NCBI GenBank assembly: GCA_024640585.1
Contig: JAHEEQ010000085.1
Location: 1-9,085, forward strand
Length of the DNA: 9,085 nt
Source of the DNA: Micrococcales bacterium
GTDB taxonomy: Bacteria > Actinomycetota > Actinomycetes > S36-B12 > UBA5976
Reading direction: 5' to 3'
Made by a program: the position numbers and the translations under genes
Notes under the pieces: model-generated
The model's input: the letters and a program-made list of their open reading frames with translations, nothing else
Database searches by the model: none
Told to the model about the DNA's origin: nothing
Part shown: positions 1-9,085 of the stretch, piece by piece
How the letters are laid out: each line of letters starts with the position of its first letter
Position numbering within the stretch: position 1 is the first letter of the stretch

Positions 1-111
1 ACATTCCCGAACAATCAACTCGGCGAACTTTTCCAACACTTCAGGATCACAGTTTTGATTGTTGTAGCCTATTCGAGCCTTCCACCAAAGTCCGTTAATT
101 CGTTCGTTCAT
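1..111 (-). CDS. Small phage protein, MNERI/KFAELIV family (partial, 3' end cut)
   Basis: Only the first 37 codons are present; the frame runs open through the window edge at position 1. The product begins MNERINGLWWKARIG and reaches KFAELIVRE. The gene at 598..861 starts MNERIRELAEQ and also contains KFAELIV, so the two are paralogs within one operon. Two stretches are identical in DNA: 18 nt over the start codon and 26 nt over the KFAELIV segment, while the middle has diverged and is shorter here. Small proteins of this type are common in tailed phages; I know of no established function. The start (109-111) overlaps the TGA of the upstream gene as ATGA, with GGGGA four bases before it. Confidence 0.75.
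   Translation of the reverse strand, partial: MNERINGLWWKARIGYNNQNCDPEVLEKFAELIVREC
11..36. repeat. 26-base repeat in the MNERI paralogs, copy 1 (copy 2 at 734-759)
   Basis: An identical 26-base match encodes the KFAELIV helix in both paralogs; a further 18-base identity (97-114 and 847-864) covers their start codons. The intervening sequence differs in length and content, consistent with duplication followed by divergence of the middle, or with conversion at the ends. Confidence 0.85.
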
Positions 112-1525: not shown

Positions 1526-2221
1526 ATGTGTATTTACTGCGAAACCAAAAACTACCGTAAAATCTACGAAAACCACCACGGTCCTATACCCCAAGAACCC
1601 AATGGTAGAAGTTTTGAGATACATCACCAAGACGGCAATCATTCAAACAACGGCCCAGACAATTTAGTAGCGTTAACGCTACAAGAGCACTACGATATTC
1701 ATTACGCTCAGGGCGATTATGGTGCTTGCTTGCTAATGAAACATCAACGCATGGAAAAGACTCCGGAAGAGCTTTCTGAACTTTCGAGCAAACGATCCAA
1801 GGCAATGTATGAAAAAGGTGGCCATCCGTTTCAAGATCGAGTGTGGGCTCGTGAACGAACCAAGAAGATTATCGAACAAGGAACCCATAACTTTCTGGGC
1901 GGCAAAATTCAAAGTAGAACCAACCAACTCAGAGTTGAAAATGGAACTCATCATTGGCTGGGTCAAGGCGATGTTGTTAGCAACAGGCAAAAAGAAAAAG
2001 TTAAAAAAGGAACCCACACTTGGCTTAAACAAGCAGACGGAAAGTCCATTGGTGGGGAGACCAGCAGACGATTAGTAGAAAACGGCACTCACCATTTGTT
2101 GGGGCCGGACTCTCCTACGCAGAAAACTTGGACATGTGTTCATTGTGGAAAGTCCGGCAAAGGTTTATCAAACTTTACAAGATGGCACGGAGATAACTGT
2201 GCTCACTTGCTTTCGTCATAA
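1526..2221 (+). CDS. HNH homing-type endonuclease with GTH repeats and C-terminal zinc finger
   Basis: A 231-residue free-standing endonuclease, the only plus-strand gene here. The nuclease module is near residues 30-60: FEIHHQDGNHSNNGPDNL followed by H55 and H59, the HNH arrangement with H33/H34 as metal and catalytic histidines. Downstream are five short repeats built on G-T/G-H at residues 98, 119, 140, 162 and 187, typically E-N-G-T-H-H-W-L-G, resembling NUMOD-type DNA-binding repeats. The C-terminus has C204-x2-C207-x13-H221-x3-C225, a probable zinc finger. Such enzymes cut a specific DNA site and promote spread of their own gene. The ATG follows AGGAG by eight bases. The last 19 bases overlap the 3' end of the convergent VWA gene, which suggests insertion between genes without disrupting either. 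HNH assignment is firm; the target is unknown. Confidence 0.9.
   Translation: MCIYCETKNYRKIYENHHGPIPQEPNGRSFEIHHQDGNHSNNGPDNLVALTLQEHYDIHYAQGDYGACLLMKHQRMEKTPEELSELSSKRSKAMYEKGGHPFQDRVWARERTKKIIEQGTHNFLGGKIQSRTNQLRVENGTHHWLGQGDVVSNRQKEKVKKGTHTWLKQADGKSIGGETSRRLVENGTHHLLGPDSPTQKTWTCVHCGKSGKGLSNFTRWHGDNCAHLLSS
1811..2104 (+). repeat. Five GTH-type repeats inside the HNH gene
   Basis: Codes for residues 96-193 of the endonuclease. Repeat units of 21, 21, 22 and 25 residues each carry G-T/G-H followed by an aromatic or Leu residue: EKGGHPF, EQGTHNFLG, ENGTHHWLG, KKGTHTWLK, ENGTHHLLG. The DNA has diverged more than the protein, so this is an old repeat under selection rather than a recent tandem duplication. 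Confidence 0.75.
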
Positions 2222-3510
2222 TACGCCCAAGTGCCCCAAGGGGGTTCGATAGTTGTGGTTCCGTGCAGGATCCAGACTGTATCACAATAGTTTTCATCTC
2301 CCCACGAACCGAACGGAAATCCGTCGGTAAAAACTACTAATCGCTTGGGCTCGATCTCTTCTTCTTTCATGTAGTTGAAAATACAGTCAAAGTCAGTGCC
2401 CCCACCGCCCTTGACTTCGTAGTCGCAAATACTATCCAGATTGTCTGAGTTGTATTGCACTGAGTTATAGGCTTCGGTGTCAAATGTAAACACAGTGATT
2501 TTATAAGCAGGGAACGAGTCCATGATGCCTTGGATTTCACTCAAGAAGTCTTTCAGCATCGATTCGCTAATTGAGCCCGAAGCGTCCAACGCCACAGCAA
2601 TATCAATCATTGGATCCAACTTCATACCAGGCATAACAGCATCCATATGCCAACCTTTGCGGCTAGTACGCATCCAGGTGTAGTCTGACTTGATAGTAGA
2701 TTCCAATTGCATACGCAACAGTTCGCGCCAGTTCATTTGTGGCTCGGTCAAGTCCTTGATCATGCGCTTGACACCAGCAGGGATATTGCCTGCATCTTGG
2801 CATGCACTTGCGGCCGCCATCATAGCTTCTTTGATCTCGTCCTTGATAGCATCGCGTTCAGCTTGAGTCAACTTAGGACGACCTTTGCCGTTACCGTCGC
2901 CGTCTTCACCGTCGCCACTGCCATCACCTTCACCGTCCAAATGATCGTCGAGCAATTTGTCAATCAAGTCACTCATGCTGATCTTTTGCGCATTTTGCAT
3001 CAAGTCGTCGTAAACTTCTTCCGAGCTCATGCCGTCATACTTGGCGTCATACAAACAAGGCACACTTGTAATAAACTCGCCTACGTTGTGCTTTTTCAAA
3101 TCTGAGTTAACACAGAAGTCGTTAGCTACGTTCCAGATCTTTGGATCGCGATCACCACGACGACCGAAGTGATCATAAACACAGTGCAACACTTCGTGGC
3201 CAAACAAGAACTCAATTTCTTTTGGACGCAATAGTTCAATGAAACGAGTGTTGTAATAAAAATTACGACCGTCAGTGGCCGCAGTAGGACACCACTCGTC
3301 TGCGTTAATCAACTTCAACCGAGTAGCCAAGTTACCAAAGAAGCTAGCTTTCAACAGCAAGCCCACACGAGCGGTAACTAATTTTTCGCGTACTTTGCGG
3401 TCTAGTGCCGGGTCAGTTGGGCCCAACATATCTTTGAATTTGTCGTTTTCTTTGCTGTCGGCAGTAGTACCGGCTTTGGCATACAAAACGTCTGGGTTAA
3501 AATATTGCAT
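2203..3510 (-). CDS. Predicted metallopeptidase/VWA protein (DUF2201 type, COG3864-like)
   Basis: A 435-residue protein with two recognisable modules. The N-terminal module has HEVLH at residues 105-109 followed by WNVANDFCVN (126-135), matching the zinc-protease-like HExxH plus downstream N/D pattern of DUF2201. A low-complexity acidic Gly/Asp linker lies at about 192-210. The C-terminal module is a VWA-like domain with DASGS (309-313), GGGGTDF (368-374) and FTDG (395-398), the MIDAS metal-ion site. Bacterial proteins of this type often pair with MoxR AAA+ ATPases in remodelling or metal-insertion systems. A MoxR C-terminus is encoded at 8600..9085 on the same strand, so a joint role is likely but inferred. 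The ATG follows AAAGGA by five bases and has its own promoter at 3538-3566. Whether it is an active protease cannot be told. Confidence 0.9.
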   Translation of the reverse strand: MQYFNPDVLYAKAGTTADSKENDKFKDMLGPTDPALDRKVREKLVTARVGLLLKASFFGNLATRLKLINADEWCPTAATDGRNFYYNTRFIELLRPKEIEFLFGHEVLHCVYDHFGRRGDRDPKIWNVANDFCVNSDLKKHNVGEFITSVPCLYDAKYDGMSSEEVYDDLMQNAQKISMSDLIDKLLDDHLDGEGDGSGDGEDGDGNGKGRPKLTQAERDAIKDEIKEAMMAAASACQDAGNIPAGVKRMIKDLTEPQMNWRELLRMQLESTIKSDYTWMRTSRKGWHMDAVMPGMKLDPMIDIAVALDASGSISESMLKDFLSEIQGIMDSFPAYKITVFTFDTEAYNSVQYNSDNLDSICDYEVKGGGGTDFDCIFNYMKEEEIEPKRLVVFTDGFPFGSWGDENYCDTVWILHGTTTIEPPWGTWAYYDESK

Positions 3511-3570: not shown

Positions 3571-3984
3571 TTACTTGACTAATGCGTAGGGTTTATTCCA
3601 TTGACCGATGTTGATGTCAATGTAGTGTGAACGGTGGAAGTAATCGCTTTGGATGTCAGAGTGATCAAAAAAGTCCGGGCCCTTCATTGCCGCAATAATT
3701 TCAGTTAAGAATGTTTTTGCAACACCACTGAAGTGTTCGTGAAACCAGTAAGTGTTAACGTCAATGCTAGTAGTAGCAGGCTGGAACGGCAAGTGTTCGG
3801 GGCGAGCCTTTGCACCGCAGACCTTGTTATAGTTGCCCAGGAAGTCAATGCCGCCTTGCTTGATGTTGAGCACAAGGGTGGAGTGATGACGAACTGCGAT
3901 ACTGGCTTTGACACCATACTTTTTGCAGATTGCTCGGATAGTGGGTGCCAACTTTGCTTTCATTTCTTGCGATACGTATGCCAT
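3571..3984 (-). CDS. Conserved phage protein of unknown function (137 aa)
   Basis: Begins with a helical stretch (EMKAKLAPTIRAICKKYGVK). Next come two probable strands, SIAVRHHSTLVLNIKQGGID at residues 28-47, then a central region with NTYWFHEHFSG, and an ending FHRSHYIDINIGQWNKPYAL. From memory, the HHSTLVL, SDxxxDYF and YIDINIGxWxKPY pattern is a recurring uncharacterised family in tailed phages and some bacteria. No enzyme motif is evident, though His and Asp residues are plentiful. The ATG at 3982-3984 has AGGAG six bases upstream and its own promoter at 4018-4046. It is a single-gene unit between the small-gene array and the VWA gene; I see no terminator after it. Confidence 0.82.
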   Translation of the reverse strand: MAYVSQEMKAKLAPTIRAICKKYGVKASIAVRHHSTLVLNIKQGGIDFLGNYNKVCGAKARPEHLPFQPATTSIDVNTYWFHEHFSGVAKTFLTEIIAAMKGPDFFDHSDIQSDYFHRSHYIDINIGQWNKPYALVK

Positions 3985-4017
3985 CTTTCACTCCTGTTTG
4001 TTGCTGTCTATGTGTAT

Positions 4018-4046
4018 ATTATAGCAAATCGGGCATTTCTGGTCAA
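4018..4046 (-). promoter_or_regulatory. Sigma70 promoter for the 3571..3984 gene
   Basis: On the minus strand TTGACC (4041-4046), a 17-base spacer, then TATAAT (4018-4023) with TGC before it as an extended -10. A leader of about 27 bases is predicted. Positions 4007-4028 are identical over 22 bases to 1021-1042 in the promoter of the distal operon, pointing to a shared, selected promoter module. Confidence 0.88.
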
Positions 4047-4061
4047 CCAAAAAGTGTAACT

Positions 4062-4098
4062 AAAAAAGTAGTACTTGAGTATTACAAATTCAAGTACT
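4062..4098 (-). terminator. Probable terminator of the small-gene array
   Basis: On the minus strand AGTACTTGA (4090-4098) pairs perfectly with TCAAGTACT (4070-4078) around an 11-base loop, followed by AC and TTTTTT (4062-4067). The stem is AU-rich for a terminator and its loop contains the TAA stop (4082-4084) of the last array gene. Its position between the array and the next promoter fits a terminator; efficiency may be modest. Confidence 0.65.
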
Positions 4099-4363
4099 TT
4101 AGCTGGAACCAACTTTGTGCTTTATCGTCAAAAAAATCCACATGAACTTGGTCTTCATAGTGCATGTTGACGCCATGTTTTGTTGGATGCTCATTGGGGA
4201 CTAGCCCTTGATGGTGCCTGTAGGTAAACCCTAGCTCACGGCGCATGCGAGTTCGCACTGCCATGCCCATGCCAAAATCCCTCAAAATGCTTGCATAGAT
4301 ATCCGACCACTCTCCAGGATTGTGGAAGATGATTAGATGCTTTTTAACAGTTACTTTGTTCAT
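4082..4363 (-). CDS. Array gene 16: signature protein, WFQLKY subtype (93 aa)
   Basis: Last gene of the array. The product has an N-terminal strand-like segment (VTVKKHLIIFHNPGEWSDI), a basic middle (RTRMRRELGFTYRHHQGL), and the signature QVHVDFFDDKAQSWFQLKY at residues 72-90, ending LNL. The WFQL form is shared with the genes at 7670..7963 and 8205..8552, which also have Arg-rich middles, so these three form a closer subgroup. The ATG is one base past the previous stop; the upstream gene's L-K-W codons (TTA AAG TGG) place GTGG seven bases before this ATG as a weak ribosome site. Function unknown. Confidence 0.8.
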   Translation of the reverse strand: MNKVTVKKHLIIFHNPGEWSDIYASILRDFGMGMAVRTRMRRELGFTYRHHQGLVPNEHPTKHGVNMHYEDQVHVDFFDDKAQSWFQLKYLNL

Positions 4364-4364
4364 G

Positions 4365-4673
4365 CTACTGCCACTTTAATATCAACATGGTGTAGAGTTT
4401 TTCGTGCATGTCAAACACATTGAAGTGGGTATACCACTGTTTATCTATATGCTCGTGTCTGTGCCACATGTTGGGGTCTTGTTCTTGCAGCCAGCCACTA
4501 ACTAGGCTAGGCTTACATTGTACTGTATACCATGTTTCGCTGTCGACTGTTGCTGAATCCAAAATGCGAATCGCTGGAGGATTTACTATGTCCATATATG
4601 TGGTTTTACCTGTTTGGCGAGCTGCCATCAGTACGTTGATTTGGCCTTTACGCCATCCTGTGGTATTTGTCAT
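4365..4673 (-). CDS. Array gene 15: Walker A (P-loop) protein ending in the LKW signature (102 aa)
   Basis: Begins MTNTTGWRKGQINVLMAARQ and continues TGKTTYMDIV: residues 17-24 fit Walker A, [AG]x4GK[ST], preceded by the usual hydrophobic strand (INVLMAA). The RQTGKT form recalls phage terminase-type P-loops, but only about 100 residues are present. There is no clear Walker B aspartate pair, so a full ATPase fold is doubtful. The C-terminus, HFNVFDMHEKLYTMLILKWQ at about 83-102, is a variant of the array signature. It may be a fusion of a P-loop N-terminus with the array's terminal module, perhaps binding nucleotide without a complete motor. The start at 4671-4673 lies 26 bases inside the previous gene, with only GAG 11 bases upstream. 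Confidence 0.8.
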   Translation of the reverse strand: MTNTTGWRKGQINVLMAARQTGKTTYMDIVNPPAIRILDSATVDSETWYTVQCKPSLVSGWLQEQDPNMWHRHEHIDKQWYTHFNVFDMHEKLYTMLILKWQ

Positions 4674-4926
4674 CTGCTAGTATCTCAAAAAGTGTTGCGT
4701 ATTGTACTTCTGGTTCCATGTGAAACCCTGTGCCCCAAACTATCCAGACTTGGCGCTTGTATGCTTTCTCCCAGAACAATTTTGTGCCACCGATTGACTT
4801 TTTGGGAAAGATAACAAATGTCTCTGTCCACGGATAGCAGTCTGCACCGTCTGTAATGATTTGTGTGACTTCCATATTTGAAAATTCTAAATTCCAACCT
4901 ATACTACGACCTGTTTTTAGTTTCAT
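4648..4926 (-). CDS. Array gene 14: hypothetical protein with KRxVWIxWGTG core (92 aa)
   Basis: Starts MKLKTGRSIGWNLEFSNMEV; the core is KKSIGGTKLFWEKAYKRQVW then IVWGTGFHMEPEVQYATLFE. This looks like an all-beta or alpha/beta small phage protein; I recall similar EVQYATLFEIL endings but no function. ATLFEIL loosely resembles the A-x-x-F-x-L part of the array signature, but the protein lacks the K/R-W ending, so I do not count it as a member. The frame is open 15 codons further up, but the ATG at 4924-4926 overlaps the previous TGA as ATGA and has GGA in TTTGGATCTGC just upstream, so I prefer it. Confidence 0.75.
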   Translation of the reverse strand: MKLKTGRSIGWNLEFSNMEVTQIITDGADCYPWTETFVIFPKKSIGGTKLFWEKAYKRQVWIVWGTGFHMEPEVQYATLFEILADDKYHRMA

Positions 4927-5165
4927 GCAGATCCAAATTTTAATGCAAACATTATGGCAGGTTCTTCCCACTCAAATTGGAAAGTGGCATAAGGAGTGTC
5001 CCACTTGCCTTTGTCCTGCCAATCAACATAGTAACGTTGAAAGTAGCCCGACCCTGTAACAGGATAGGCATCACACCATTCCAGCATGCCGTCTTGTCGT
5101 TTGACACGCACCTTGTATCTAAAGTCTGGGTTTGAACGGCCACCGCCGCCATAAAATAGTTCCAT
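4923..5165 (-). CDS. Array gene 13: signature protein ending FALKFGSA (80 aa)
   Basis: Residues 1-15 include MELFYGGGG, followed by RYKVRVKRQDGMLEWCDAYP, an aromatic middle (YFQRYYVDW), and the signature ATFQFEWEEPAIMFALKFGS near residues 60-79. The W-C pair at 30-31 sits where related array proteins carry WCxEN. The FALKF ending is closest to FALRFA of the gene at 6289..6513. The start overlaps the previous stop by one base (TAATG). The F-G-S codons TTT GGA TCT put GGA six bases before the next gene's ATG. Function unknown. Confidence 0.8.
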   Translation of the reverse strand: MELFYGGGGRSNPDFRYKVRVKRQDGMLEWCDAYPVTGSGYFQRYYVDWQDKGKWDTPYATFQFEWEEPAIMFALKFGSA

Positions 5166-5536
5166 TATTCCCAGGCCTTGTTACTTAATCGACGCCATGC
5201 TAGACGCTTTTCCATAATGTCTTTGAATTTTTCAGCGTGTGCCAAAGTCGAAAATCTCACACCTGGAATTGTAAAACGTGCCAAGTGACGAGCGGTACTT
5301 TCTGGTTGCGAATGCCATGCAATCCAATTGATGTGCATGGTTTCGCACTCGTCAAAATTTGATTTGCCCTCTTTAAGAACACCGATCATGGCATAATCTA
5401 CTTCAACTTCGTTAAACAAAATGTCCAGCAACTTGTTTGCTTTATCTGGATTGTTTACAACATTGTATTCATAACCTGGCCAAGTTACTGACCACGTGTT
5501 GTTTGGCAAATCGTTAAGAACAAAATAACTTTTCAT
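5165..5536 (-). CDS. Array gene 12: hypothetical protein (123 aa), atypical member
   Basis: Starts MKSYFVLNDLPNNTWSVTWP; residues 30-60 look alpha/beta, and a segment VRFSTLAHAEKFKDIMEKRL lies at about 93-112. That segment keeps the F-x(5)-A-x-x-F spacing of the array signature but continues into a basic helix (LAWRRLSNKAWE) instead of stopping at K/R-W. It may therefore be a divergent or extended version of the same strand-helix module; this is a weak inference. Seven more codons lie upstream in frame. The ATG at 5534-5536 is preferred because it overlaps the previous TGA and follows GAGGTGG, which is the L-R-W codon string of the upstream gene. Confidence 0.78.
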   Translation of the reverse strand: MKSYFVLNDLPNNTWSVTWPGYEYNVVNNPDKANKLLDILFNEVEVDYAMIGVLKEGKSNFDECETMHINWIAWHSQPESTARHLARFTIPGVRFSTLAHAEKFKDIMEKRLAWRRLSNKAWE

Positions 5537-5790
5537 GACCACCTCAATATAAACCAATCTCTGTCTGCTTCGTTACGAAAGTAAAACCTGGCATTGTTTG
5601 TATACCACCGTGCGCGAGGAGTCCAAACCCCATCTGAGGGAGTGGGGCCAAATGTTTCTACTGCCCACTCGACCATTTGATGCCATGCATCTATGCCGCC
5701 CCAGTCACCAGCTGGGTCCCAACTTGGGATAGGATGCACGATCCAATATCTTGCACCGAATACTCGGCCTTCATCTAGTGTCAGCTCCAT
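5533..5790 (-). CDS. Array gene 11: signature protein ending FILRWS (85 aa)
   Basis: Aromatic-rich product: GARYWIVHPIPSW, a probable helix AWHQMVEWAVETFGP (35-49), a strand with W56/W62, then the signature NARFYFRNEADRDWFILRWS at 66-85. It shows the commonest array layout: W-x-x-E-x helix, a short strand, then a strand-turn-helix end. The final codons TTG AGG TGG TCA TGA also give the next gene its ribosome site and ATG. The start shown (5788-5790) lies inside the previous gene's K-W codons and has no ribosome site, so the true start is uncertain. Confidence 0.78.
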   Translation of the reverse strand: MELTLDEGRVFGARYWIVHPIPSWDPAGDWGGIDAWHQMVEWAVETFGPTPSDGVWTPRARWYTNNARFYFRNEADRDWFILRWS

Positions 5791-6023
5791 TTTAACACAA
5801 ACGCCAACAAATCAGCAGAGCTGTTGAACACAATCTTGTTGGGTTCCATCCAGTAATCTCTGCGATTATCAACATCAATTTTACAGTCGAAGTATTCTTC
5901 AAACTGTTTGAATATTGTTTGGTTGGAAGGCACATTCAAATGCTCTCGTAACCAGACGCCTGCATTCTGTGCTGAACTATGACTGCCAGGCAGCACGTTT
6001 GTTACACCCACTTTAGCATCCAT
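5781..6023 (-). CDS. Array gene 10: signature protein ending FVLKWS (80 aa)
   Basis: Contains AGVWLREHLNVPSNQTIF (21-38), FEEYFDCKID, and the signature PNKIVFNSSADLLAFVLKWS at 61-80, ending exactly at the motif. WLREHLN occupies the place of WCxEN in related members. The ATG at 6021-6023 starts within the previous gene's signature codons and lacks a clear ribosome site. A GTG at codon 10 has GTGGGTG about eight bases before it and is a realistic alternative. Function unknown. Confidence 0.76.
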   Translation of the reverse strand: MDAKVGVTNVLPGSHSSAQNAGVWLREHLNVPSNQTIFKQFEEYFDCKIDVDNRRDYWMEPNKIVFNSSADLLAFVLKWS

Positions 6024-6292
6024 AATACAATATCATCCCGATTAGTAAAGCCCCACCACTCTTTATGATTGTCGGGATCACTGCTGTAACAAAAAACTTT
6101 ACCTTTTAATGTAGTATTGCACCAGTTGTAGTATGCCCATTTAAATCTGCTGACACCAATAGGCTTTACGCACACAAACATTTCGCACCTGTCGCCACTT
6201 TCTTCGGGAATCCACAACGGGCTATCGTCGTTGCCTAGTCCGGCACCTAAGTTATTAAAATAATCTACAAACTGAGCTCGAGTTAGTATCAC
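6002..6292 (-). CDS. Array gene 9: signature protein ending WMLKWV (96 aa)
   Basis: Begins MILTRAQFVDYFNNLGAGLG, then LWIPEESGDRCEMFVCVKPI, then RFKWAYYNWCNTTLKGKVF with W-C at 57-58. The signature is WWGFTNRDDIVLWMLKWV at 79-96. Trp replaces Phe in the F-x-L position, the only such case here. The start is a GTG (6290-6292) overlapping the previous TGA as GTGA. The upstream L-R codons TTG AGA give GAG six bases before it. Its last 22 bases overlap the predicted next gene. Function unknown. Confidence 0.78.
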   Translation of the reverse strand: MILTRAQFVDYFNNLGAGLGNDDSPLWIPEESGDRCEMFVCVKPIGVSRFKWAYYNWCNTTLKGKVFCYSSDPDNHKEWWGFTNRDDIVLWMLKWV

Positions 6293-6513
6293 GCAAATCT
6301 CAATGCAAACATAACAGCATCGGAATCATCCTCAAACTGAACTAAACATTTACCTGTCCAATTAGGTGCTGTATAAAATGGTGCCCGGGTATTTTCTTTA
6401 CACCATCGATAAATTTCACCATTGGTGTATGCGTTATTGTAATGCACATCGTGCAACTTTGGCACCTTCAGAGTTGGTGCTAGATCGGGATAAGGATAAG
6501 TGTATGTAATCAT
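6289..6513 (-). CDS. Array gene 8: signature protein ending FALRFA (74 aa)
   Basis: Short protein: a Pro/Tyr-rich N-terminus (MITYTYPYPDLAPTLKVPKL), then IYRWCKENTRAPFYTAPNW with WCKEN at 37-41, then the signature KCLVQFEDDSDAVMFALRFA at 55-74. The WC-x-EN segment is also in the gene at 7506..7715 (WCAEN), and DAVMFALRF is among the clearest copies of the signature. The start overlaps the previous TGA as ATGA but lacks a strong ribosome site, suggesting dependence on translational coupling. The last codons TTG AGA TTT GCG TGA carry the next gene's GAG and GTG start. Confidence 0.82.
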   Translation of the reverse strand: MITYTYPYPDLAPTLKVPKLHDVHYNNAYTNGEIYRWCKENTRAPFYTAPNWTGKCLVQFEDDSDAVMFALRFA

Positions 6514-6968
6514 GATATTCTATTCATTGCTGCCCACATGTCAATCTGTTCTCGGAGTTTGGCATTTTGTTCTTTAACTTGATTGATCTCTTTCTGAGCT
6601 TCTGATACTTTATGAGCGTTAGCTTTCTTCTCTTGCCACACTTCCTCAACAAACTGCATAATGCTTCGAGCTTTGAGATTGTCGCGTTCTTCTTCTGCTT
6701 GTTCAAGTCTGTCTTTTACGCCCCCAAGTTCATCGTTGGCGTATTCTAGTTGTTTCTCAAGATCTGTGATGTACTGCCCGGGGAACATCTTGTTCCAACC
6801 GTCACCAAACGTCCAAGTCTGCGGATCCATACCTGCGTCTTCGAGGTCCGAAATAATAGCACCGCGAGTCTTTGCTAACACATCGATCAGTCTGCGGATC
6901 AGTGGATCATCACTGTAGATATCCAAGTAATGCAACAGCTCAAGGTCTGTCATTGCATTGTAGTTCAT
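6510..6968 (-). CDS. Array gene 7: coiled-coil phage protein (152 aa)
   Basis: N-terminal part MTDLELLHYLDIYSDDPLIR (6-25) followed by RLIDVL and DAGMDPQTWTF; I recall this LELLxxLDxYSDDPLxRRL pattern from uncharacterised proteins of many tailed phages. From about residue 67 onward the sequence is a long charged helix with heptad spacing (TDLEKQLEYANDELGGVKDR, then QAEEERDNLKAR, then QKEINQVKEQNAKLREQID), probably a coiled coil mediating oligomerisation. It lacks the array signature. Both ends overlap neighbours as ATGA. A later ATG at codon 6 is a possible alternative start. Confidence 0.85.
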   Translation of the reverse strand: MNYNAMTDLELLHYLDIYSDDPLIRRLIDVLAKTRGAIISDLEDAGMDPQTWTFGDGWNKMFPGQYITDLEKQLEYANDELGGVKDRLEQAEEERDNLKARSIMQFVEEVWQEKKANAHKVSEAQKEINQVKEQNAKLREQIDMWAAMNRIS

Positions 6969-7297
6969 ACTTTTGCTAACGCCTTTACCATTTCATATTG
7001 TTCAATCGCCCGTTGCACCACAGCCCATGCATCCTTTTCTGCCACAGAAACTTCGTCACGTCGCCGCATGTTGTAGTCATCGTACCAACCAATGGGATCA
7101 GCGTCTGTCCAATAAATCACACGGGCATATCGTGCATGGCTCACGCTACTGTCCTGCCAGGAGGCGAGTTTGGCGTTCCAGAAATAATACCCAGTATCAG
7201 TTTCGTCATCGCCTATGGTGTAACCTTTGAACGCAAGATAGTAACCAGACTCCGGTGGAATCTTTTCATCTACATCATACCATACACAGGCTTTCAT
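6965..7297 (-). CDS. Array gene 6: DUF551-like protein (110 aa)
   Basis: VWYDVDEKIPPESGYYLAFK at residues 5-24, then YYFWNAKLASW (38-48) and ARVIYWTDADP (59-69) follow the DUF551 pattern: W-x-V-x-E-x-x-P-x-x-G-x-Y-L, a second strand with W, then a V-x-x-W near the domain end. DUF551 proteins are small, common in phages and prophages, and have no established function. The C-terminal 35 residues form a charged helix beyond the domain. The start overlaps the previous stop as ATGA, with only GGA eight bases upstream. It lacks the array signature. Confidence 0.82.
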   Translation of the reverse strand: MKACVWYDVDEKIPPESGYYLAFKGYTIGDDETDTGYYFWNAKLASWQDSSVSHARYARVIYWTDADPIGWYDDYNMRRRDEVSVAEKDAWAVVQRAIEQYEMVKALAKV

Positions 7298-7509
7298 ACT
7301 GTGAATCCGTTTTGGTCTTTGACTTTATGCACTCGCATTTTGTTGCAACATGCACAATGAGCATCTTGTATGTTAGCGGTGCCGCCCTTGGGCAAGTACA
7401 CTTCACTCCATTGTGTCCACCGATGCCACCCAAATCTACATAACCATGAACGAATCAACAATGGTTCATCCTTTAATGCTCTAAATGTGTTTTCTTTATC
7501 AATGTTCAT
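7294..7509 (-). CDS. Array gene 5: small zinc-finger phage protein (71 aa)
   Basis: Contains WLCRFGWHRWTQWSE at 22-36 and HCACCNKMRVHKV at 51-63. C24, H29, C52 and C55 (C-x4-H...C-x2-C) make a likely single zinc site. The C-R-x-G-x-H-x-W-T-x-W pattern followed by a CxxC recurs, from memory, in small phage proteins of unknown role; nucleic-acid or protein binding is possible. An ATG two codons earlier exists. I prefer 7507-7509 because it overlaps the previous TGA as TCATGA, exactly as at 5534-5536, with TTGAGATGG upstream. It lacks the array signature. Confidence 0.83.
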   Translation of the reverse strand: MNIDKENTFRALKDEPLLIRSWLCRFGWHRWTQWSEVYLPKGGTANIQDAHCACCNKMRVHKVKDQNGFTV

Positions 7510-7715
7510 GACCATCTCAATAAAAATGCCGTAAGTGCGGGCCCATCAGGAAATACCAAAGTCATTCCTGCAAACTGTGTGTTATTTTCCGCACACCAGT
7601 CGCGTAAACTATCTTCATTGTCTGCCCAGTAACGGAAGTCTGTTAGTATAACCATCTTTGTTTCATCTGTCAACACATCTGAGACGATAAAGAATCTTTC
7701 TTGAGCTGAAACCAT
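7506..7715 (-). CDS. Array gene 4: signature protein ending FLLRWS (69 aa)
   Basis: Shortest signature protein: MVSAQERFFIVSDVLTDETK, then SLRDWCAENNTQFAG (WCAEN at 40-44), then the signature MTLVFPDGPALTAFLLRWS at 51-69. It is close to a minimal version of the array layout, a leading strand, a helix with WCxEN and the terminal strand-turn-helix. Its ATG lies within the previous gene's T-W codons, 46 bases before that gene ends, with AAGGA six bases upstream. The last codons TTG AGA TGG TCA TGA carry the next start. Confidence 0.82.
   Translation of the reverse strand: MVSAQERFFIVSDVLTDETKMVILTDFRYWADNEDSLRDWCAENNTQFAGMTLVFPDGPALTAFLLRWS
7645..7673 (-). promoter_or_regulatory. Candidate intragenic sigma70 promoter in the array
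   Basis: On the minus strand TTGACA (7668-7673), 17 bases, then TATACT (7645-7650): a perfect -35, correct spacing and five of six -10 bases, within the gene at 7506..7715. It lacks the extended -10 and the shared downstream bases of the three main promoters. If active, it would transcribe array genes from 7509 downward without depending on readthrough of the terminator at 8553. It could be chance within coding sequence. Confidence 0.4.
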
Positions 7716-7963
7716 GTTGCATCCTTTGGGTCTCTAAAGTATATGTCGCACCAGGTGCGTTTTATAACGTCCGGAGCAGAATCAATTCTCTCGTGTCTCG
7801 TTCTGTAGAACCAAGTCCTATCAGAACCCATTCCTGCTTTGCCAAACAATCTTCTCGCTAGTATGAGTGCATGATTAACTTGGATATCAAAACTTTGTCG
7901 GGTCCACCAACCTTGTCCGTGTTCTTCTGATAATACGCTAATTCTAGTAGACTTATTACTCAA
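7670..7963 (-). CDS. Array gene 3: signature protein, WFQLKK subtype (97 aa)
   Basis: Begins MSNKSTRISVLSEEHGQGWW; the middle is basic (ALILARRLFGKAGM, then WFYRTRHERI). The signature CDIYFRDPKDATWFQLKK lies at 72-89, followed by nine extra residues (DSLSSQMC and one more) that overlap the next gene. It groups with the genes at 8205..8552 and 4082..4363 by WFQL and the Arg-rich middle. The start is TTG at 7961-7963, chosen because GGAG lies seven bases upstream; that GGAG is formed by the W-S codons TGG AGT of the previous gene. Confidence 0.78.
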   Translation of the reverse strand: MSNKSTRISVLSEEHGQGWWTRQSFDIQVNHALILARRLFGKAGMGSDRTWFYRTRHERIDSAPDVIKRTWCDIYFRDPKDATWFQLKKDSLSSQMC

Positions 7964-7966
7964 CTG

Positions 7967-8212
7967 TTAACTCCACTTTAGTGTAAACGCCAAGGCATCT
8001 TTGCCATTTTCAAATGCAAACTCATTGTTATGCCAACTAGCTACCCAATATCCCGAGCTAGCTGTTTCTGTCCAGATGCAAAGTCCCATCCATGAGCATG
8101 TTTCTTTCCACTTGGCTTTGTCTGCTTTTACAATATGCCAACCACGTTTTTTAGCACTACGCACACTTCGTGGATTGGATGCTTTATAAGGAAGACTATG
8201 ACTTCTACTCAT
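7967..8212 (-). CDS. Array gene 2: signature protein ending FTLKWS (81 aa)
   Basis: Strongly basic N-terminus (SLPYKASNPRSVRSAKKRGW, then KADKAKWKE), a Trp-rich middle (CSWMGLCIWTETASSGYWVA), and the signature NNEFAFENGKDALAFTLKWS at 62-81. The basic N-terminus could bind nucleic acid; that is only suggested by charge. The ATG overlaps the end of the previous gene by eight bases (ATGAGTAG) and has no Shine-Dalgarno sequence, so translation probably relies on coupling. Its last codons provide the ribosome site of the next gene. Confidence 0.8.
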   Translation of the reverse strand: MSRSHSLPYKASNPRSVRSAKKRGWHIVKADKAKWKETCSWMGLCIWTETASSGYWVASWHNNEFAFENGKDALAFTLKWS

Positions 8213-8552
8213 TGTTGTTTAGTGGATGTGATAGTTGAAACCAACTTAGTTCTTTGTCGCTCACCAAATAAATGCGATAGTCGTTGTATTGCACAGAGTA
8301 TGCCCAGTGCAAATTGATGTCTTCGTCTTGCACTGAATTGTTCTGTGGATCTATTCTGCGTTTTAATAACGCCGACCTAGTATCTACATCTTGCGACCAG
8401 CCCCAAGTCTGATTCATCCAACGTCTAGAACGATCAAAGTCTAGCACGCCAGTGCCACGCCAAGTGCTCTTGGAAAACTCTAGCATGTAAGCAAATTGGG
8501 CGCACCAACTATGCCGTCTATCTAATTTTACAACTTCGTATCGCATAATCAT
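8205..8552 (-). CDS. Array gene 1: signature protein, WFQLS subtype (115 aa)
   Basis: First gene of the array. Sequence features: VVKLDRRHSWCAQFAYMLEF, a Trp/Arg-rich stretch (RSRRWMNQTWGWSQDVDTRS), and the signature DYRIYLVSDKELSWFQLSHP at 91-110, followed by a short tail. The L-K-W is replaced by L-S-H, so it is the most divergent copy. Two ATGs (codons 1 and 3) are possible starts; the first comes directly after the seven-T tract of a terminator and neither has a Shine-Dalgarno sequence. Translation may be weak or may rely on readthrough mRNA. Function unknown. Confidence 0.75.
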   Translation of the reverse strand: MIMRYEVVKLDRRHSWCAQFAYMLEFSKSTWRGTGVLDFDRSRRWMNQTWGWSQDVDTRSALLKRRIDPQNNSVQDEDINLHWAYSVQYNDYRIYLVSDKELSWFQLSHPLNNNE

Positions 8553-8599: not shown

Positions 8600-9085
8600 T
8601 TAGGCCGAAGCCTGCAAAATGTACTTGCCGTACTTGTCGTGGAACTGATCGAAGTTCTTCAACTTGGTAGGTTGGAATGGCAAGTTGTATGTGGTAAGAG
8701 CAATACGTGCGCCCATCACAACCAACTCAGTTTCAAAGTTCTTCATCATGTATGAGAAGAAGTTGTCTGCCATTTCGTGGAACTTCTTAGAATCCACTTT
8801 TTGCTCAACAGCGCCTTTCAACTCGTAGCACATGGAAATCACCAGTGAATACATAGCTGACACTTCCTTGACATTCAAGTCCGATACCTTGCCAGACAAG
8901 ATGTCTTCTGGGCGAGGCATACGACCTGCAATCTTACGATGTGCCATGAACTTCACTGCAAGGCCTTCGCCAATTGTACCAGCAATCAAGTTGGTTGCAG
9001 TTTCGTCATCTACACCGTCGTCGTCCAGTAACTGGCTCACAAAGGTCCATGAGCGCGGTGTAGCAAATGCACGGCTTGCAGATTT
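8600..9085 (-). CDS. MoxR-type AAA+ ATPase, C-terminal part (partial, 5' end cut)
   Basis: The frame is open from 9085 to the TAA at 8600-8602, giving 161 residues. They begin KSASRAFATPRSWTFVSQLL, the A-x-P-R-S/T-W...S-x-L-L segment of the small C-terminal domain of MoxR-family AAA+ ATPases. Next comes a helical region with GTIGEGLAVKF and PRPEDILSGKV. The Walker A and B motifs would lie upstream of the window. A GTG near 9040 could look like a start, but conserved family sequence continues above it, so the gene is cut by the window edge. MoxR proteins typically energise a VWA-domain partner, and one is encoded at 2203..3510. A terminator follows 20 bases after the stop. Confidence 0.85.
   Translation of the reverse strand, partial: KSASRAFATPRSWTFVSQLLDDDGVDDETATNLIAGTIGEGLAVKFMAHRKIAGRMPRPEDILSGKVSDLNVKEVSAMYSLVISMCYELKGAVEQKVDSKKFHEMADNFFSYMMKNFETELVVMGARIALTTYNLPFQPTKLKNFDQFHDKYGKYILQASA

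Follow-up and report, generated by a model that had tools for sequence, protein, structure and literature searches.

Tandem arrays of small, non-essential early genes are known from T4-type phages, where no function has been assigned to them and turnover is high. As described in PMC3014915, Gol, a 29-residue region in the first quarter of the capsid protein gp23 and the most conserved part of that protein, binds EF-Tu and lets Lit cleave EF-Tu. In the account given in PMC9712102, capsid proteins are expected to be common triggers of defense, and Avs is triggered by terminase or portal. In this study, we analyzed a stretch of 9,085 nucleotides (the window) assigned to a Micrococcales bacterium (GenBank assembly GCA_024640585.1, contig JAHEEQ010000085.1). 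Its list of open reading frames (ORFs) confirmed the presence of sixteen small ORFs on the minus strand, at 4082-8552, which an earlier note on this DNA had described as a gene array. The array lies between the end of a gene for a MoxR-type AAA ATPase (8600-9040) and a gene for a putative VWA-like metallopeptidase (2203-3510).

We propose that this tandem array, whose genes largely overlap, encodes paralogous small phage proteins of one undescribed superfamily, and that these form a diversified anti-host arsenal in which some members carry bait or decoy pieces. We assign this reading a rough probability of 0.42; its anatomy is well supported, and its function is inferred. The shared bb-a-bb-a domain (b, strand; a, helix) would be a stable scaffold with a variable face, and duplication and turnover would yield a set of binders that neutralize host proteins during infection. 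Pieces resembling capsid protein and terminase would act as baits or decoys that occupy host recognizers (EF-Tu/Lit-like, CapRel-like and Avs-like sensors), and the true capsid protein and terminase would then not be sensed by the host. Fast turnover, a constant scaffold, variable faces and virion-like fronts are most simply accounted for together by a host-directed set of binders, some of them baits or decoys, and we prefer this reading. The searches made gave neither a described family to which the shared domain belongs nor an earlier account of fronts of this kind; what is new is the anatomy (domain and fronts), not the function.

Eleven of the products, named here by the starts of their genes (8552, 8212, 7963, 7715, 6513, 6292, 6023, 5790, 5165, 4673 and 4363), had been said to share a C-terminal pattern, and this claim was borne out. 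A match within 14 residues of the C-terminus to a profile of the last 31 residues was taken as the mark of membership in the superfamily. This profile, for which relatives and seven of the eleven products served as training set, reports exactly these ORFs and no other window ORF of at least 35 amino acids up to E = 100; the other five array ORFs (7515, 7297, 6968, 5557 and 4971) are without the motif. Seven of the eleven score below E = 0.01, and the values for the rest are 0.21 (7715), 0.71 (8552), 1.7 (4673) and 2.6 (6292). When profiles were made from window sequences only and each member was left out in turn, 8/11 were recovered above every non-member, and the expectation that the ends would find one another failed for 6292, 8552 and 4673. 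The pattern F-x-L-[KR]-[WF] was counted in 10,792 ORFs of 80 related loci and the window. Of its 98 occurrences, 79 lie no more than four residues from the C-terminus, and the motif is mostly, not always, terminal; it stands at the end of no shuffled or reversed ORF of the same set. No match at E < 1e-3 was obtained for any of the eleven products in PHROGs, or for any of the ten that were compared with Pfam.

Eleven of the sixteen array genes were compared with those of the nearest relative, locus L023. Their ratios of nonsynonymous to synonymous substitution rates (dN/dS) are 0.06-0.31, values that are rough, with dS above 1, near saturation, in 10 of the 11 genes. Since synonymous sites vary far more than replacement sites, the array ORFs are real genes on which purifying selection acts. 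Of the genes compared, the core pair 8552 (0.06) and 4363 (0.07) is as constrained as the VWA gene (0.07), and the other nine (0.11-0.31) are less so.

Structure models were made for two divergent members of the eleven. The AlphaFold2 models of 8552 (predicted local distance difference test score 86, predicted template modeling score 0.80; alignment of 33 sequences) and 5790 (87 and 0.79; 46 sequences) both have the order strand-strand-helix-strand-strand-helix, with one extra helix in 8552 (bb-a-a-bb-a). In these predictions, the conserved F-x-F is the last strand, D-A-x-x-F-x-L-[RK]-W is the last helix, and W-C-x-E-N or W-C-x-x-x-F-G is located in the first helix. A profile-profile alignment of the 8552 and 5790 families covers 54 columns, beginning at helix 1 and extending as far as the C-terminus (probability 86%, E 5e-6). 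The earlier note had offered a shared partner, a fold core or a C-terminal tag as meanings of the motif. The two models and the alignment favor the fold core: the motif lies inside the final strand-turn-helix of both modeled proteins (2/11, with no unrelated folds), which supports its assignment to a predicted bb-a-bb-a domain and speaks against a free tag. The statement that the rest of each protein is different was half right; parts do vary, but the common fold also takes in the W-C-x-E-N stretch and the strands that precede it.

The motif was also sought in IMG/VR with a DNA pattern that requires a stop one codon later. At least 119 loci were listed, compared with 28 for a control pattern with TGC in place of TGG, and superfamily members occur in 115/119 of the listed pattern loci and in 0/28 of the control loci. 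With iterated profiles, we counted 639 members in the loci searched; at an earlier iteration, with 587 members, 0/16,758 reversed ORFs matched. The predicted clustering was found for 406/639 members, which directly adjoin another member, and not for the others. Sequence families are many (36 blastp clusters among the first 150 members), and the comparisons made point to no known fold or function for the shared domain.

Array contigs reach 364 kb, and every capsid gene found was of the gp23 kind, the sole kind sought. Two arrays are present in G004, the closest relative. In the cultured-host Sinorhizobium phage Phosso (469 kb), 18 superfamily matches at E <= 1 are spread over several clusters, and 8 of these score below 1e-3; nine further named phages gave at most a single, weak match each. 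The Phosso record also annotates tRNA-Pyl(cta) (L256, 446.7 kb), many tRNAs, Clp proteins and translation factors.

Gene content suggests that the arrays turn over fast. In L023, too, the 8552 and 4363 homologues stand between the MoxR and VWA genes, and 5165 is shifted in position relative to that locus. In the ORFs of loci L001-L100, no blastp homologue (E <= 1e-3) was found for 7515, 7297, 6292 or 6023, and the only one of 6968 lies outside the array, at L089:1496-2038 (minus strand) in the nearest genome, a sign that cassettes may move between loci. The core genes are more widespread: blastp homologues of 8552 occur in 50, and those of 4363 in 46, of the 93 loci that the ORF set represents. 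The homologues of 8552 number 805; all of the 120 listed lack a name or are called "hypothetical protein", and two of these bear PF21629. Of three window members tried, 5790 has the most single-sequence relatives in related loci (43, compared with 8 and 9). Two orthologous superfamily groups are found in 24 loci each (e.g., L006:7053-7328 and L027:13656-13982), and these examples are located downstream of the VWA gene.

The features of the array and its flanks, all on the minus strand, are as follows.

8600..9040, minus: MoxR-type AAA ATPase, C-terminal part, truncated at the window edge; phrog_1297 "ATPase", E 4e-16.
8205..8552, minus: gene 8552, "KLDRRH" paralogue, core gene adjoining MoxR; ends FQLSHPLNNNE; likely start is the ATG at 8546, downstream of the longest-ORF start.
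7967..8212, minus: gene 8212, array member; ends FTLKWS; profile E 1.4e-6; ortholog L023:6882-7124.
7670..7963, minus: gene 7963, array member with TTG start; FQLK, then a tail of about 10 residues; profile E 9.6e-8; ortholog L023:7129-7413.
7506..7715, minus: gene 7715, array member with W-C-A-E-N helix; ends FLLRWS; profile E 0.21; its codons TTGAGATGGTCATGA contain the ATGA start of the next gene.
7294..7515, minus: gene 7515, small, without motif; likely start 7509 at an ATGA overlap; phrog_28834 match, E 7e-5 over 17 residues.
6965..7297, minus: gene 7297, small, without motif, ATGA-coupled.
6510..6968, minus: gene 6968, without motif; judged by eye, probably a coiled coil.
6289..6513, minus: gene 6513, array member with W-C-K-E-N helix; ends FALRFA; profile E 3.3e-5.
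6002..6292, minus: gene 6292, weak array member with GTG start; ends WMLKWV; profile E 2.6.
5781..6023, minus: gene 6023, array member; ends FVLKWS; profile E 0.0022.
5533..5790, minus: gene 5790, subfamily RWYxNNAKFWFRxxxDxxWFxLRW; profile E 6.4e-9.
5533..5547, minus: TTGAGGTGGTCATGA, codons for L-R-W-S-stop that double as the Shine-Dalgarno sequence (GAGGTGG) and the ATGA start of the gene that follows (5536).
5165..5557, minus: gene 5557, without motif; likely start is the ATG at 5536, at an ATGA overlap.
4923..5165, minus: gene 5165, array member; ends FALKFGSA; profile E 4.2e-6.
4648..4971, minus: gene 4971, without motif; likely start is the ATG at 4926, at an ATGA overlap; ortholog in L023.
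4365..4673, minus: gene 4673, array member with N-terminal P-loop module (RKGQINVLMAARQTGKTT); ends LILKWQ; profile E 1.7.
4082..4363, minus: gene 4363, second core paralogue, VWA-proximal; ends FQLKYLNL; profile E 2.1e-5.
3571..3984, minus: conserved hypothetical gene between array and VWA gene; phrog_10415, E 2e-36; no Pfam match.
2203..3510, minus: putative VWA-like metallopeptidase with HEVLH; PF13203 E 3.8e-37, PF09967 E 1.7e-16.

The motif codons also bear on how neighboring genes are joined. With bait matches left out, 254/467 members start at -4 of the preceding stop, mostly as ATGA, and the L-R-W codons, often TTG AGG TGG, supply a Shine-Dalgarno sequence that is suitably spaced from this ATG. 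Because ATGA overlaps are common in G004 generally, the point of note is the Shine-Dalgarno register within the motif, not the overlap. In loci not found by the pattern, the motif Arg is AGG in 47% of 60 cases, compared with 6.8% elsewhere in those proteins; in pattern-found loci, bait matches again left out, the figures are 61% of 206 and 8.4%. AGG at this position is used by 64% of 223 members whose next start lies at -12 to +1 and by 18% of 22 with no start near (Fisher p 4e-5). Several longest-ORF starts are the motif read in another frame; the TTG start of 5557, for example, consists of motif codons of the preceding gene. The L-R-W-x-stop end often doubles as the ribosome-binding site of the next gene, and such an arrangement would make the genes interchangeable cassettes.

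Such an overlap raises the question of whether the signature is a mere by-product of the next gene's ribosome-binding site (TTGAGGTGG plus ATGA) and not of protein structure. The strong AGG bias fits this explanation, as does the single residue between motif and stop in 426/587 members, although this spacing comes mostly from the pattern-found set, where the pattern demanded it (75/176 in the other loci). However, the columns F-x-F, D-A-x-x-F and F-x-L are conserved upstream of the Shine-Dalgarno bases, K is commoner than R at the motif position in loci not pattern-found (110/176 versus 60), W or Y is kept in 37/42 members without a downstream start, and both models put the motif in the last strand and helix. 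A ribosome-binding-site origin is already disfavored, and we regard it as highly improbable.

The array had also been called a modular set, and this holds in an extended form, in that some relatives have N-terminal modules resembling virion-assembly proteins. About a third of the members (209/587) have at least 28 residues before the last 62. Nine of the 21,482 small ORFs score below E = 3e-5 with a profile of 19 capsid sequences of these phages. The array profile recognizes seven of the nine as members and misses the eighth (L177), which ends LTLRWS; the ninth, a 226-amino-acid Phosso ORF without the array motif (L277:4176-4856, at 182.2-182.9 kb), has a capsid segment of about 65 residues, 26/65 identical to the phage's own capsid protein. 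Pfam Gp23 scores above the gathering threshold in 5/5 chosen array proteins, within profile positions 2-48, and does so in L267:10563-10961 and in L254:8924-9304 of Phosso. The matches span 27-63 residues of 376 profile positions and are fragments, not capsid proteins. Among eight named phages, capsid fragments in small ORFs were found only in Phosso, the one with arrays; the second match in T4 is the full-length vertex protein gene.

Three capsid segments are used, most often the first: (a) around residues 94-122 of T4 gp23, (b) a stretch ending AQEITxEIDQEIL, and (c) YCPYVPL...TRYG near the C-terminus. One array of the phage contig G026 has genes with a P-loop, with segment (b), of which 26/56 residues agree with the capsid protein of the same phage, and with segment (a) (14/25). 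When the 162 large ORFs of G026 were compared with superfamily members, only the capsid protein (best E 6e-10, seven members) clearly exceeded the reversed control (best 0.0025), the next forward ORF being at 0.001. A database search with module (a) gave 12 small proteins, including the query, all of 127-134 amino acids and all ending in F-x-[LI]-[RK]-W. Module (a) overlaps residues 94-122 in 7/7 aligned proteins, wholly in four and mostly in the other three, and keeps much of the core PxxIAxxIxGVQPM. These 29 residues are the ones that we take to be Gol, and module (a), which is present in relatives and not in the window, appears by alignment to correspond to the T4 Gol peptide.

Fusions of this kind could also arise without selection on the fronts, if recombination randomly joined gene pieces to a permissive domain and produced a gene-birth mosaic. 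Fast turnover agrees with such a process, and the often identical junction DNA could supply microhomology. The pieces are, however, in frame and come repeatedly from the same capsid segments, other large G026 proteins are not sampled above noise, and the capsid-module protein occurs in 12 database clusters with its Gol-like core kept. We consider unselected fusion very unlikely. Alternatively, the array proteins might be capsid or packaging accessories, in which the gp23 piece would bring the small domain to capsid subunits, to the scaffold or to terminase and would tune assembly, or poison that of competitors. It is in keeping with this proposal that the pieces come from the capsid protein and probably from terminase, both assembly proteins. 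Against it, most members have no such piece, the G026 arrays (191-195 and 208-213 kb) are far from the capsid gene (2.6-3.8 kb), and no T4-type TATAAATA is present in the window; the last point says little, because 0.3 would be expected by chance and these phages are not known to use it. An accessory role seems to us distinctly unlikely.

The P-loop of 4673 is a second kind of front. In an alignment of 110 columns that takes in the P-loop, this gene shares 42% identity with L267:8619-9044 of G026. The module has a GRQxGKS-like pattern, and its profile ranks all six terminase ORFs used within the top seven of 1,410 large ORFs, with a best E of 1.3e-4; the seventh is an unannotated ORF of a control contig. 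In 52 homologues of 4673, an LKW-type end is found in 43.

Several observations weigh against the reading of the array as anti-host binders with baits or decoys. Most members have no recognizable capsid or terminase piece, Gp23 being the sole Pfam family matched more than once, in 6/149 scanned members with longer N-terminal parts. The window itself holds a P-loop module (4673) but no capsid module, as its ORFs gave nothing better than E 0.8 with the capsid profile. Fragments of type (b) outside L267 and L120 were picked with a pattern chosen after the fragments had been seen. The link between P-loop module and terminase has a best E in the 1e-4 range, and the reciprocal terminase profile finds no small ORF at E < 0.05. 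In addition, the terminase family used, phrog_2, also matches in 13/14 control genomes at the threshold applied, so that the terminase assignments rest on their own E-values of about 1e-39 or better. ATP binding by the 4673-type module is doubtful because its homologues keep R..GK[ST] in just 34/52 cases. Sensors such as Avs recognize folded proteins, and a short P-loop may thus be a poor decoy. Finally, a strict Shine-Dalgarno core precedes 109/239 ATG starts at -4 and 1/31 at -10, which leaves many junctions without it and makes the overlap no general rule.

The flanking genes point to another possible partner. The full-length MoxR ortholog (L023:5397-6488) has AAA and AAA_5 above cut-off and bpMoxR below. 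PHROGs labels the VWA gene "HNH endonuclease" (phrog_1314, E 1e-109), a label not borne out by its Pfam domains. The array proteins could be protease adaptors whose constant domain docks on the MoxR AAA ATPase/VWA-metallopeptidase and whose variable fronts deliver host proteins for unfolding or degradation. The position of the array and its two core paralogues between these genes suggests such a role, and among 16 pattern-found array contigs searched, out of the 119 loci, the VWA gene is present in 9/9 of at least 174 kb, compared with 1/7 smaller ones; in G026 a KLDRR-type relative lies beside it. On the other hand, further arrays in G004 and G026 are far from the VWA gene, the AAA-ATPase and VWA genes of Phosso are adjacent with no array between, and six cultured phages with a VWA gene besides Phosso have no or one weak superfamily match. 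We consider adaptors unlikely. A combined scheme is also conceivable, in which these are self-bait arrays of jumbo phages: the constant domain would be coupled to the MoxR/VWA protease, and fronts copied from the capsid Gol region and the terminase P-loop would capture and remove the host proteins that sense them. We judge this scheme very unlikely, too.

Other elements were noted near the array. An ORF at 1526-2221 on the plus strand overlaps the end of the VWA gene and is presumably, from its motifs, an HNH endonuclease with repeats. A 47-nucleotide repeat is present in two copies (79%), at 1021-1067 and 4007-4053, upstream of the minus-strand ORFs 1001/861 and 3984; on the minus strand it reads TTTGCTATAATATACACA, or nearly so, and resembles an extended -10 box. 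Direct repeats at the left end of the window (1-36 with 724-759, 89%; 88-120 with 838-870, 82%) point to a gene region that is present in two tandem copies, now diverged.

The work would give a definition to a domain that hundreds of proteins of large phages share and for which no described family or fold was found. The array proteins whose capsid segment corresponds to Gol raise the question of whether phages counter immunity directed at the capsid by making copies of the very peptide that is sensed. Where motif and ribosome-binding site overlap, in turn, one stretch would be under two kinds of selection, and the overlap is a possible way to keep cassettes interchangeable.

The bb-a-bb-a domains of eIF1/SUI1 and GyrA/ParC may be among the closest known systems. 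As in MoxR-VWA systems, AAA ATPase and VWA-metallopeptidase genes flank the window array, but their link to the array products is one of synteny, and we know of no described MoxR-VWA system with such small proteins. The terminase large subunit (phrog_2) resembles the P-loop module in the stretch around Walker A; in contrast to terminase, the array proteins have no later terminase parts, and their glycine-lysine motif is not always kept. T4 gp23 (PF07068) aligns, around residues 94-122, with module (a) of the relatives' array proteins, which differ from it in having only 27-63 capsid residues, fused to an unrelated small domain; a capsid fold is impossible. The array is like the tandem, fast-changing small early genes of T4-type phages, but in the present case much of the arrays is taken up by a single superfamily, with a common C-terminus and, in some members, fronts that resemble virion proteins.

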